This document shows, one piece after another, positions 2,684 through 5,611 of a stretch of DNA of 64,000 nt. A program made the translations under genes and the position numbers. The notes under the pieces were generated by a model. That model saw nothing but the letters and a program-made list of their open reading frames with translations. It did no database searches and was not told the origin of the DNA. The stretch is from Parvibaculum sp. (GTDB lineage Bacteria > Pseudomonadota > Alphaproteobacteria > Parvibaculales > Parvibaculaceae), in NCBI RefSeq assembly GCF_030694575.1, contig NZ_JAUYUS010000100.1:1-64000 (forward strand), given 5' to 3'. Positions within the stretch are counted from its first letter, which is position 1; each line of letters begins with the position of its first letter.

Positions 2684-3394
2684 CTATCCCCTCGATACTT
2701 TCAGCATCCGTTTCGCCCCCATCTGGAATTCAAACGGTACATCCACAAGTTCAGGCCGAGCGCCCTCCTCCGCAAGAGCCTTCATGATGCCGGGCAGATG
2801 GCTCGACGGCCGCCCGTCCAGATTGACGAGTGGAAAGACGCGCACCTCCCCGGCCACGCGCAAAAGCTCGCGCATTGCGGCCAGATGAAATGCAAAGTCG
2901 AGATCGTCGCCATAGAGAAACAGCAGGTGCGACGACAACGCCAGCCGGAAGGCGTTGTCCGGAAACGGCAGCCCCGGTAAGGCGGCCGTTACATATCGGC
3001 CGTCCTTTTTCCCCACCTCGAAATCAGCAAGGAAAAGCTCGAGCGCTTCGCGCCTCAACCGATGCACGGCCTCCTCCGATCCGTAATAGTCCCACCTGAA
3101 GCGATAAGCGGCGCGGTGCATGCCCGTTCGCATGGCAACCGCCGTCTCCTCGAAGCGCGCCCGGATGTCGTCGCCCGAAAACCGGTAGATCGGATCGGTC
3201 GCAACCACCCGAATACCGGCAGCGGCTGCCTCCGCCGCGAAGGACGACGGCCCTCCGCCTGCATCCAGTACCGGCGACAGACCCGCCAGTTCCTTGAGCC
3301 CGAAGAACGCCTCATACTCGCGAAGGCGGCGGCCCCACGGCACGACGCCGCCGAGATCGAACTCCCTTTCCGGGACGGCTTCGAATTTCCTCAT
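2684..3394 (-). CDS. class I SAM-dependent methyltransferase of unknown substrate
   Basis: A Rossmann methyltransferase of 236 residues. Motif I reads VLDAGGGPSSFAAEA near residue 45, an acidic residue ends the second strand (VVATDP), and LPFPDNAFRLALSSHLLF covers motifs II-III. I start it at the ATG at 3394, which has GAGGAAG just upstream; a longer reading frame would run through the hairpin at 3465-3495 and is unlikely. It follows the glycine betaine methyltransferase genes but lacks their substrate-binding features. A short Trp-rich leader ORF and an intrinsic terminator sit 70-180 bases upstream, so expression may be attenuated. Confidence 0.78.
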   Translation of the reverse strand: MRKFEAVPEREFDLGGVVPWGRRLREYEAFFGLKELAGLSPVLDAGGGPSSFAAEAAAAGIRVVATDPIYRFSGDDIRARFEETAVAMRTGMHRAAYRFRWDYYGSEEAVHRLRREALELFLADFEVGKKDGRYVTAALPGLPFPDNAFRLALSSHLLFLYGDDLDFAFHLAAMRELLRVAGEVRVFPLVNLDGRPSSHLPGIMKALAEEGARPELVDVPFEFQMGAKRMLKVSRG

Positions 3395-3464: not shown

Positions 3465-3495
3465 AAAAGGCCGCCTCCATGAGGGGCGGCCTTTT
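3465..3495 (-). terminator. intrinsic terminator / attenuator hairpin
   Basis: The arms AAAAGGCCGCC (3465-3475) and GGCGGCCTTTT (3485-3495) form a perfect 11-bp stem with a 9-base loop. Read on the minus strand, the stem is followed by TTTTCGTTT, giving a good intrinsic terminator between the Trp-rich leader ORF and the methyltransferase. The first arm on the minus strand (3491-3484) can instead pair with GGGTGGCC at 3531-3524, which would stop the terminator forming. Confidence 0.8.
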
Positions 3496-3532
3496 CCGGT
3501 TTGGTCGTCAGACGACGGAACGGGGCCACCCT

Positions 3533-3577
3533 TCAGGTGGTCCACCATGCGCCGTTCGTGACATGCGAAATAGTCAT
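3533..3577 (-). CDS. 14-residue Trp-containing leader peptide
   Basis: A tiny ORF reads MTISHVTNGAWWTT and stops with TGA. It has a ribosome site (GAGGA) about 7 bases before the ATG. The adjacent Trp codons sit in the arm of a small hairpin (CCACC at 3540-3536 with GGTGG at 3530-3526), and the terminator hairpin follows 37 bases after the stop. This matches the layout of a trp attenuator leader (compare the 14-residue TrpL of Sinorhizobium). The downstream gene here is a methyltransferase, not trpE. It is an inference from architecture only. Confidence 0.6.
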   Translation of the reverse strand: MTISHVTNGAWWTT

Positions 3578-3586
3578 CTCGATCCT

Positions 3587-3613: not shown

Positions 3614-3617
3614 GAAA

Positions 3618-3644
3618 CTTATGCCCGCCGCGTCACTTTGCCAA
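3618..3644 (-). promoter_or_regulatory. possible promoter for the Trp leader
   Basis: Reading the minus strand, TTGGCA (3644-3639) and CATAAG (3623-3618) are 15 bases apart and overlap the end of the SDMT gene. This could start the leader transcript. The -10 match is weak and the spacing is short, so read-through from the betaine genes is an equal alternative. Confidence 0.25.
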
Positions 3645-4472
3645 GCGGTAATGCATGACGCCCCAGGCGAGATAGCCCTTATCCGCGCCGTCCACCCAGT
3701 GACCCAGGCCCTTGATCATATTGTCGAGATAATCCGTGCTCGCGCCTTTGGACAGGCGCTCGTATTTTGCCTTCAACTCCTCACCCACGCGCCAGTAGTG
3801 GCGGCGCAGCTGGTGCGTCAGCACCTTCACCTCGACCTTCTCGAAGCCCCGCTTGCCGAGCTCCGCATCGTAGAAGCCGAAACTGCCGAGCGTTTCGAGA
3901 TGAATGCGGTCCAGAATGGGCTGCAACACGCCTTCCGGACAATCGTCCGCCTGCATTGGATCGGTGAAAATGAACTGGCCACCCGGCCTCAGCACCCGCT
4001 TGACCTCGTCGAGCACGCGACGGCGATTGCCGCTATGCAGGATTGCGTCCTGCGACCACACCACATCCATGCTCGCATCTTCAGCCGGAATATTCTCGAA
4101 GTCGCCGTAGACGACATCGACCTTGCCGGCGAGCCCCGCCTTATCGTTCAATTCGCGGTTGAGCCTGTTCTGCGTCTCGCTGATATTCAGGCAGGTGACG
4201 TGGCAGCCGCGCGTTCGCGCGAGATGCCGTGCCGCACCCCCGTAGCCCGCGCCAATATCCAGCACCTTCGTCGTCTGGTCTACGCCTCGCAGCATCGATG
4301 CCAGCGTCTCGTCATTCCGATGGCTCGCCGTAACGATCGGTTCGCTGTCGTCCTTGTACATCCCGATATGGATGTCCTCGCCTCCCCATATCGTGAAGTA
4401 GAAAGAATCCGCGTCGGGGCTATCGTAATAGGCTTCGGCCTGGGCGACTGCTTTCGACTTACCGGTCGTCAT
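3633..4472 (-). CDS. sarcosine/dimethylglycine N-methyltransferase (glycine betaine synthesis)
   Basis: This 279-residue class I methyltransferase resembles the SDMT half of the glycine-to-betaine pathway. It begins with the family-type AYYDSPDADSFYFTIWGGED segment. Motif I is VLDIGAGYGGAARHLA, and a VWSQDAILHS post-I region and LRPGGQFIFTDPMQ follow. It adds methyl groups from SAM to sarcosine and dimethylglycine, producing the osmoprotectant betaine. I use the ATG at 4472 (MTTGKSKAV), which overlaps the end of the upstream GSMT gene by 14 bases and suggests translational coupling. The pair forms a complete pathway. Confidence 0.88.
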   Translation of the reverse strand: MTTGKSKAVAQAEAYYDSPDADSFYFTIWGGEDIHIGMYKDDSEPIVTASHRNDETLASMLRGVDQTTKVLDIGAGYGGAARHLARTRGCHVTCLNISETQNRLNRELNDKAGLAGKVDVVYGDFENIPAEDASMDVVWSQDAILHSGNRRRVLDEVKRVLRPGGQFIFTDPMQADDCPEGVLQPILDRIHLETLGSFGFYDAELGKRGFEKVEVKVLTHQLRRHYWRVGEELKAKYERLSKGASTDYLDNMIKGLGHWVDGADKGYLAWGVMHYRLAK

Positions 4473-5268
4473 GATAGGTCTTCTCCGCGACGTGAATGAA
4501 AAAATCGGCGTCGGCTTCCTTGTAGGTTTCCTGGAAGTCGCCATAGGTGGAGACTTTCTGAAAACCTATTTCATGCATGAGACGCCGCATGTAGTCCTTG
4601 CGCAGAGGAAACATGTTGAGGTGATAAACGCTCTGGTCCGGGAACGTGTAACAGAACCGTGCAAGCGTCTCGTCCACATGTTCCGGTTCGGCCGTAACCT
4701 TGTCGCCGCAATAGTAATATTTGTGCTTGGAGCTGAATCCGTGATCCAGGATGGCGTCGTAGTTGCGCTGATCGAGTATGAGGATGCCGTCATGTTTCAG
4801 CGCTGCATAGAATTCAGCGAGCGCACGGCGGCGATCCTTTTCCTCGAACAGATGCGTAAACGAATTGCCCAGACATATGATGGCGTCGAACTTTCCATGC
4901 ACGTCCTTGTTGAGCCAGCGCCAGTCGGCGTGAACGGTCTGCATGACGAAGCCGTGCTCGCGGCCGTTCGCAAAGGCGCGGGACAGCATCTCCGCACTTC
5001 CGTCGACACTCGTCACATCGAAGCCTGCCTTTAGAAGCTGCACGGAATTGAATCCCGTTCCCGTCGCAACATCGAGGATCTTGTGCTTGCCACGCTCCTT
5101 CAGGATGTCGATGAAGAAATGCCCTTCACTTTCCGCACGGCTGTCCCAGTCGATGAGATCGTCCCACTTCTCGACAAACGACTCGACATATTCGTTCTGG
5201 TAATTGTCCGTCTCGCGCCTGGCCAGCGGGTCCTCTCCAAACTCCTGTTCCCTCTTGAGTTGTTTCAT
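4459..5268 (-). CDS. glycine/sarcosine N-methyltransferase
   Basis: This 269-residue SAM methyltransferase matches GSMT of the betaine pathway, which converts glycine to sarcosine and dimethylglycine. Visible motifs are YVESFVEKWDDLIDW near the N terminus, motif I ILDVATGTGFNSVQLLKAG, the acidic loop VTSVDGS and ICLGNSFTHLF. A Tyr-rich segment KHKYYYCGDKV lies in the substrate region. The start is the ATG at 5268, preceded by GGAGGA at good spacing; the longer frame upstream is not needed. It is the first gene of a two- or three-gene methyltransferase operon likely used against osmotic stress. Confidence 0.88.
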   Translation of the reverse strand: MKQLKREQEFGEDPLARRETDNYQNEYVESFVEKWDDLIDWDSRAESEGHFFIDILKERGKHKILDVATGTGFNSVQLLKAGFDVTSVDGSAEMLSRAFANGREHGFVMQTVHADWRWLNKDVHGKFDAIICLGNSFTHLFEEKDRRRALAEFYAALKHDGILILDQRNYDAILDHGFSSKHKYYYCGDKVTAEPEHVDETLARFCYTFPDQSVYHLNMFPLRKDYMRRLMHEIGFQKVSTYGDFQETYKEADADFFIHVAEKTYHDDR

Positions 5269-5611
5269 GACGACATTCCTCCGGAAATGGCGGCGACCGC
5301 GCATGCGTCTCCGCTGCCGCCAAAATGAACAAACGGCTCCGGCCGATCCCGCCGGTAGCCTATGAATTCGGTTTCGAAAGCCCGCAAAGGTCAGCCGTGC
5401 ACACGCACGAAAACGGGCCGTGTCCATAAGCGTCGACAAAAACATACGACAAGGTGACTGAAGTCACAGGACGCGACTGGGAACGGCACTGCATTCTCGA
5501 TGCAGCACGGATTATGCCCGCTCAGCGACTGCACGCTAACAAACCACACTGCCGGGATCAACCGCGTGAGGAAAAAAGTTCCAGAAAACGCTGTCGCATA
5601 TGAGTTTTTTG
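5269..5611. other. intergenic region upstream of the betaine genes
   Basis: No convincing gene is visible in these 343 bases. They should hold the promoter of the methyltransferase operon. On the minus strand a TTGTCG hexamer (5452-5447) lies beside the dyad GTGACTtcAGTCAC. The remaining sequence near 5600 has a T-run at the 3' end of the MscS gene. Confidence 0.5.
5454..5467. promoter_or_regulatory. palindromic operator candidate
   Basis: GTGACT (5454-5459) and AGTCAC (5462-5467) are a perfect 6-bp inverted repeat with a 2-base spacer. It sits about 190 bases upstream of the GSMT start and next to a possible -35 element. It could bind a dimeric regulator of the osmoprotectant genes; no regulator is encoded beside it. 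Confidence 0.35.

Follow-up and report, generated by a model that had tools for sequence, protein, structure and literature searches.

The window, i.e. the whole stretch of 64,000 nucleotides of Parvibaculum DNA that was analysed, contains on its minus strand a compact element, spanning 3644 down to 3465, that opens with the promoter-like pair TTGGCA-N17-TAAGTT. Along this strand, the promoter pattern is followed by a Shine-Dalgarno (SD) sequence, a short leader ORF, mutually exclusive hairpins, a terminator and a methyltransferase gene. The features are the following:

3639..3644, minus strand: TTGGCA, predicted -35 element of the leader promoter (pattern kept in 22/24 same-genus loci)
3616..3621, minus strand: TAAGTT, predicted -10 element of the leader promoter (pattern kept in 22/24 same-genus loci)
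3583..3586, minus strand: SD sequence AGGA of the leader ORF (read directly)
3533..3577, minus strand: leader ORF MTISHVTNGAWWTT, 14 codons, stop TGA (read directly, and conserved)
3542..3547, minus strand: tandem Trp codons TGG TGG (3547-3545 and 3544-3542) near the end of the ORF (read directly)
3536..3543, minus strand: arm 1, GGACCACC, partner of arm 2 (from folding and from pairing at each locus)
3524..3531, minus strand: arm 2, GGGTGGCC, partner of arm 1 or arm 3 (from pairing at each locus)
3484..3491, minus strand: arm 3, GGCCGCCC, forming the antiterminator with arm 2 or the terminator with arm 4
3465..3478, minus strand: intrinsic terminator, arm 4, GGAGGCGGCC (3478-3469), and T-run (3468-3465)
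2684..3394, minus strand: putative class I SAM-dependent methyltransferase gene, companion of the leader (weak Pfam matches)

The stem of the first hairpin is made of CCACC (3540-3536) and GGTGG (3530-3526), and the duplex of arms 2 and 3 counts 8 bp in the window, one of them G-U. Direct reading confirmed the 14-codon ORF, the hairpin, the arms, the terminator and the T-run, and the positions that the first-pass annotation had given are right to the nucleotide. Upstream of the leader, also on the minus strand (3633-5445), are found genes for a glycine/sarcosine and a sarcosine/dimethylglycine methyltransferase, which likely constitute a glycine-betaine synthesis pair. The first of these genes scores 495.5 bits with NCBIfam, above the cut-off, and the second 360.5 bits, below its cut-off.

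The 161-nt region folds with an energy of -71.7 kcal/mol (z = -2.97), equalled by 2 of 200 shuffled sequences. When the window was scanned for an SD sequence followed by a short ORF with TGGTGG and a stop codon, two ORFs were retrieved, and a terminator follows one of them, the leader described here. In comparison, 60 dinucleotide shuffles yielded a mean of 0.23 such SD-led TGGTGG ORFs and none with a terminator. In view of the fold and of the scan, chance is a poor explanation of the element. The element stays below the gathering score of every Rfam family, T-boxes and known leaders included, and the sole match in the window is a tRNA.

Conservation was studied in 40 genomes of the order, all belonging to the family of the window. 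The downstream methyltransferase gene is present in 27 of them (24 of the same genus and 3 from two other genera), and each of the 27 copies is preceded by a leader ORF in which Trp codons stand close to the end, as a tandem pair in 26 cases and singly in one. The first-pass reading had been staked on such conservation in relatives, which is what the family displays. Within the genus, the leader occurs in exactly the 24 genomes having the methyltransferase, including the Parvibaculum indicum DSM 25305 record, which carries the same cluster. It was not found in the three same-genus genomes without the gene (G018, G022 and G026, the latter 74% complete), where a DNA search gave either no match or a match to the terminator hairpin alone. 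This search matched 30 genomes, and six with a match to the terminator part alone were left out.

Among the family matches listed for a covariance model of the element, scores of at least 67.7 bits are reached only at the 24 same-genus loci, the next best match being at 38.4 bits. Over the 40 family genomes and 385 genomes of the class, the other matches listed do not exceed 41 bits. The sequences of 41 of these weaker matches were read, and 39 lack a short tandem-Trp ORF. The two exceptions are L145, described below with the trpS genes, and L144 (1501-1582, minus strand; G243:C15), where the match overlaps a short tandem-Trp ORF. The leaders of the other two genera came to light when the sequence ahead of the methyltransferase gene was read; two of them score 30.1 and 26.7 bits with the model, and the third is absent among the family matches listed. 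These three leaders end with GLWWAAF, GLWWTAF and DWWTVF, each directly followed by the stop codon.

The arms had been proposed at first pass to follow the 1:2 / 2:3 / 3:4 logic of a trp attenuator. This logic extends to the whole set, since the duplexes of arms 1:2, 2:3 and 3:4 have energies of -10 kcal/mol or better in 27/27 loci and the antiterminator pairing 2:3 is unbroken in 25 of the 27. Pairings were judged locus by locus, not from an alignment. RNAalifold returned no consensus structure for the arm 2-arm 3 region of the 27 loci, in a MAFFT alignment that left the other-genus loci out of register. No two-sided covariation of the pairings was observed among the same-genus loci, because the arms hardly vary. 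Between genera, the arm 1:2 stem changes from CCACC:GGTGG to CCGCC:GGCGG in two loci (L080 and L081), corresponding to one A-U to G-C compensatory pair. As pairs barely vary within the genus and RNAalifold gave a null result, the structural evidence consists of conservation and kept complementarity, not of covariation.

Judging from its sequence, the element very probably is a ribosome-mediated Trp transcription attenuator controlling an uncharacterised SAM methyltransferase gene. In its anatomy it corresponds to a classical Trp attenuator, and it is conserved and has an unusual target, in line with the initial annotation of a Trp attenuator ahead of a methyltransferase; its dependence on Trp is presumed. 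Transcription would start at the leader's own promoter and a ribosome would translate the 14-codon leader. When charged tRNA-Trp is scarce, the ribosome would wait at TGG-TGG and mask arm 1; arms 2 and 3 would then form the antiterminator and let RNA polymerase enter the methyltransferase gene. When tRNA-Trp is plentiful, the ribosome would proceed to the stop codon and mask arm 2, which would leave arm 3 to form the terminator with arm 4.

The spacing of the arms is compatible with this mechanism. Counting from the first TGG, arm 1 corresponds to positions 5-12 and arm 2 to positions 17-24. A ribosome covers about 12 nt beyond the first nucleotide of its A-site codon. With this footprint, a ribosome placed on the first or the second Trp codon would reach position 13 or 16, respectively, arm 1 being masked and arm 2 free, and a ribosome placed on the stop codon would reach position 25, all of arm 2 being masked. 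In partition-function folding, either Trp stall gives 7-10 expected arm 2:3 pairs in 24/24 same-genus loci. With the ribosome on the stop codon, at most 1.2 such pairs are predicted in 18 of these loci, in agreement with the mechanism, and 3.1-4.8 in the remaining six, where the agreement is weak; the predicted values are 5.2-6.9 in the three other-genus loci, which do not agree, and 3.6-6.7 in the five loci of the trpS type considered below. At equilibrium and without a ribosome, arm 2:3 is favoured in 22/24 same-genus loci (at least 7.8 pairs), so that the arm 1:2 hairpin has to fold earlier in order to prevail. The arm 2:3 pairs left over in the stop state and the ribosome-free preference point to a limitation either of the folding model or of the switch itself. 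We infer the positions taken by the ribosome, a response to Trp and a usefulness of the methyltransferase when Trp-tRNA is low.

The leader is predicted to be translated. An AGGA SD sequence is located 4-10 nt ahead of the ATG in all 24 same-genus loci and was not found in the three other-genus loci. In two of the latter (L080 and L081), a -10-like TATTCT lies 7 nt ahead of the leader ATG; the leader RNA may be leaderless there, like that of Sinorhizobium meliloti trpL. All 27 loci retain an early stop as well as an ATG that shares the frame of the Trp codons, and indels inside the ORF of the 24 same-genus loci are multiples of three. The first TGG is invariant (27/27) and the second is found in 26/27 loci. 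At the remaining locus (L010, 1500-1649, minus strand), the second codon is CGG, and Trp-Arg replaces Trp-Trp; this may reflect a weakened switch or a sequencing error. Measured from the beginning of the first Trp codon, the stop codon starts at 12 nt in 19/24 same-genus loci and at 15 nt in the three other-genus loci. In the five same-genus loci without this early stop, it is found at 27 nt, i.e. 15 nt later and after five more residues, still over arm 2.

The peptide itself is conserved only at the Trp codons and adjoining residues (the two that follow, within the genus), and the residues preceding the Trp codons drift between loci. This bears on the possibility that the function lies with the leader peptide or with the terminated RNA, acting in trans in the manner of peTrpL or rnTrpL, the link with the methyltransferase being secondary; an sRNA role of the terminated RNA was the second option of the first-pass annotation. 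There is a precedent in S. meliloti, where the 14-aa peTrpL and the sRNA rnTrpL act in trans (PMC7298713). However, such a product is difficult to reconcile with the drift of the residues ahead of the Trp codons, and the element tracks the methyltransferase gene, and was not found in the same-genus genomes devoid of the gene. Such a primary role in trans is therefore very unlikely, and a trans role may be additional to attenuation.

A second possibility is a translation-independent hairpin switch, for instance an RNA binding a protein or a ligand, in which TGG-TGG would be kept for pairing only. Indeed, local folding of arm 1:2 leaves two or more nucleotides of the first TGG paired at all 27 loci. 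Because the codons pair in this way, the invariance of TGG-TGG cannot by itself distinguish codon sensing from structure. Pairing does not, however, account for the in-frame ATG and the early stop of every locus or for the SD sequence of the same-genus loci, and a similar arrangement precedes accessory trpS genes (see below). A switch operating without translation is thus very unlikely; the retained ATG, SD sequence and stop argue for codon sensing.

The genes located upstream of the leader are more variable. The neighbour is the sarcosine/dimethylglycine methyltransferase gene in 18/24 same-genus loci and, by reading, other genes in six; it differs in the three other-genus loci too, which have the same kind of leader. 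Since upstream neighbours vary while the leader stays, the switch is assigned to the methyltransferase. The promoter pattern TTGGCA-N17-T(A/G)xxxT is present in 22/24 same-genus loci, including the six with a different upstream gene; of 4800 upstream regions that were shuffled, 3 contain it. It is predicted to work as the leader's own promoter, its activity and the transcription start being presumed. In the window, the sarcosine/dimethylglycine methyltransferase gene ends 55 nt before the leader ORF and a strong terminator follows, so that the region could be seen as the mere terminator of this gene with an accidental Trp-Trp ORF. The nine loci with other upstream genes, six of them in the genus and retaining the promoter pattern, and the conservation of the leader ORF and its Trp codons make this highly improbable. 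That the short ORF adjoining the methyltransferase gene encodes a precursor peptide modified by the enzyme (a RiPP-like pair) is scarcely credible, given a terminator between the two genes, no conserved core beyond the Trp codons and, in same-genus loci, the two residues after them, and five extra residues in five relatives. On these grounds, namely the conserved leader ORF and Trp codons, the varied upstream genes and the intervening terminator, the plain terminator, the RiPP precursor and the accidental ORF were rejected.

The controlled gene encodes a protein of 236 aa which, on the basis of weak Pfam matches, would have a class I SAM fold and belong to an uncharacterised family. The window protein matches the generic domains Methyltransf_25 and Methyltransf_11 below the cut-offs, and Methyltransf_11 is matched at E 0.01 or better in 18/23 members of the methyltransferase family. 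NCBIfam has no match for the window protein and weak matches in at most 5/23 relatives. No family naming the function of the enzyme was retrieved from Pfam, NCBIfam, PADLOC or solved structures. Among the latter, a profile search gave two weak matches, YcgJ (E 0.0058) and 3sm3 (E 0.04), and a single-protein search gave one weak, unrelated match. PHROGs gave one weak match, and no match was found in phages. PADLOC has none for the window protein; in relatives, it gives a weak mads_2 match in 3/23, and each of two type II methyltransferase models weakly matches a single relative. AlphaFold2 reached a pLDDT of 43 with a 4-sequence alignment.

Relatives of the enzyme are scattered, being found in 7/385 genomes of the class and 5/398 genomes of the phylum, those of the family included, and in 22 of 72,556 plasmid records. 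In another alphaproteobacterium (L084, 1492-2175, minus strand), a stop codon lies within the frame of the relative. At a further locus (L173, 1489-3239, minus strand), a distant relative is placed directly behind a gene identified as trpS by reading, and the two share one direction; this adjacency is a single case, as the methyltransferase is present in just 2/78 genomes of that order. A tandem-Trp ORF is absent from the 400-500 nt upstream of 13 relatives outside the family (8 genome loci and 5 of the 22 plasmid records). Therefore, the control is probably a family-level acquisition.

The expected target of a Trp attenuator is trpE, and the first-pass annotation had raised the question of whether the real trpE has its own leader. 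TrpE was found in 39/40 family genomes, and a short tandem-Trp ORF is absent from the 400 nt before trpE in all 30 loci read, which answers in the negative for that interval. Many trpE genes abut or overlap the preceding ORF. At one locus (L118), tandem-Trp ORFs are located about 490-420 nt upstream of trpE, inside the preceding gene. Similarly, no conserved Trp-Trp leader precedes the main trpS gene in the 30 genomes, out of 38, where it was read, an isolated ORF of this kind being present in 2/30.

Four genomes, including that of the window, have a second trpS above the family cut-off. All four accessory trpS genes (L204, L205, L206 and L207) are preceded by a tandem-Trp leader ORF, then by attenuator-like arms. 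In the window's own genome (L204, 1079-1236; G000:C40), the leader reads MKRTMIIAKLWWLAC, ended by a stop codon. Another alphaproteobacterium (L145, 1453-1611, minus strand; G220) has the leader MVNRPHLPAFIWWRSF, likewise closed by a stop, and attenuator-like arms; the gene that follows is a trpS of this type. Since accessory trpS genes have them, tandem-Trp leaders are used in the lineage at genes for which a Trp signal is readily understood. By its predicted features, the methyltransferase leader shares the arrangement of the accessory trpS leader.

Attenuation by Trp would thus place a scattered methyltransferase family under probable control of Trp-tRNA charging in one bacterial family, and low Trp-tRNA would be a concrete condition for seeking the substrate of the enzyme. 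The common attenuator type in one genome, the scattered occurrence of the methyltransferase, plasmids included, and the trpS adjacency in L173 are hints that the methyltransferase and the accessory TrpRS might form a small regulon induced by failed tRNA-Trp charging, the methyltransferase protecting against a blocker of charging. It could, for example, methylate a TrpRS inhibitor or a Trp analogue. We consider this regulon doubtful. More generally, the element suggests that amino-acid attenuators can govern genes beyond biosynthesis and charging.

As judged by titles and abstract openings, in a literature from which subscription papers are mostly absent, the element appears to be undescribed. 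Its closest counterparts are Trp attenuators of other genes. Escherichia coli trpL has tandem Trp codons and the 1:2 / 2:3 / 3:4 logic, as does the Parvibaculum leader, which differs from it in sequence, target operon and arm spacing. Outside the trp operon, an auxiliary TrpRS gene is reportedly the subject of work by Vecchione and Sello in 2010. A candidate attenuator is located upstream of trpS2 in Streptomyces avermitilis, among actinobacterial trp and trpS attenuators (PMC1262725), and the trpS mRNA of Caulobacter has a small leader CDS (PMC4117421). Duplicated synthetases are the subject of two other studies (PMC4787780; PMC9437257), and the main text of a paper on premature terminators is without a methyltransferase (PMC2965389). 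As in the trpS attenuators, the leader described here would govern a gene outside the trp operon; unlike them, its target is a methyltransferase instead of a synthetase, and the genome of the window has the trpS type as well. In Sinorhizobium and other rhizobia, trpL is a 14-residue leader with Trp codons and antiterminator/terminator alternatives, placed before trpE(G) (PMC7298713). The Parvibaculum leader has the same length, Trp codons and alternative structures. However, it precedes a methyltransferase gene, not trpE, and it has an SD sequence, whereas the rhizobial trpL is leaderless.
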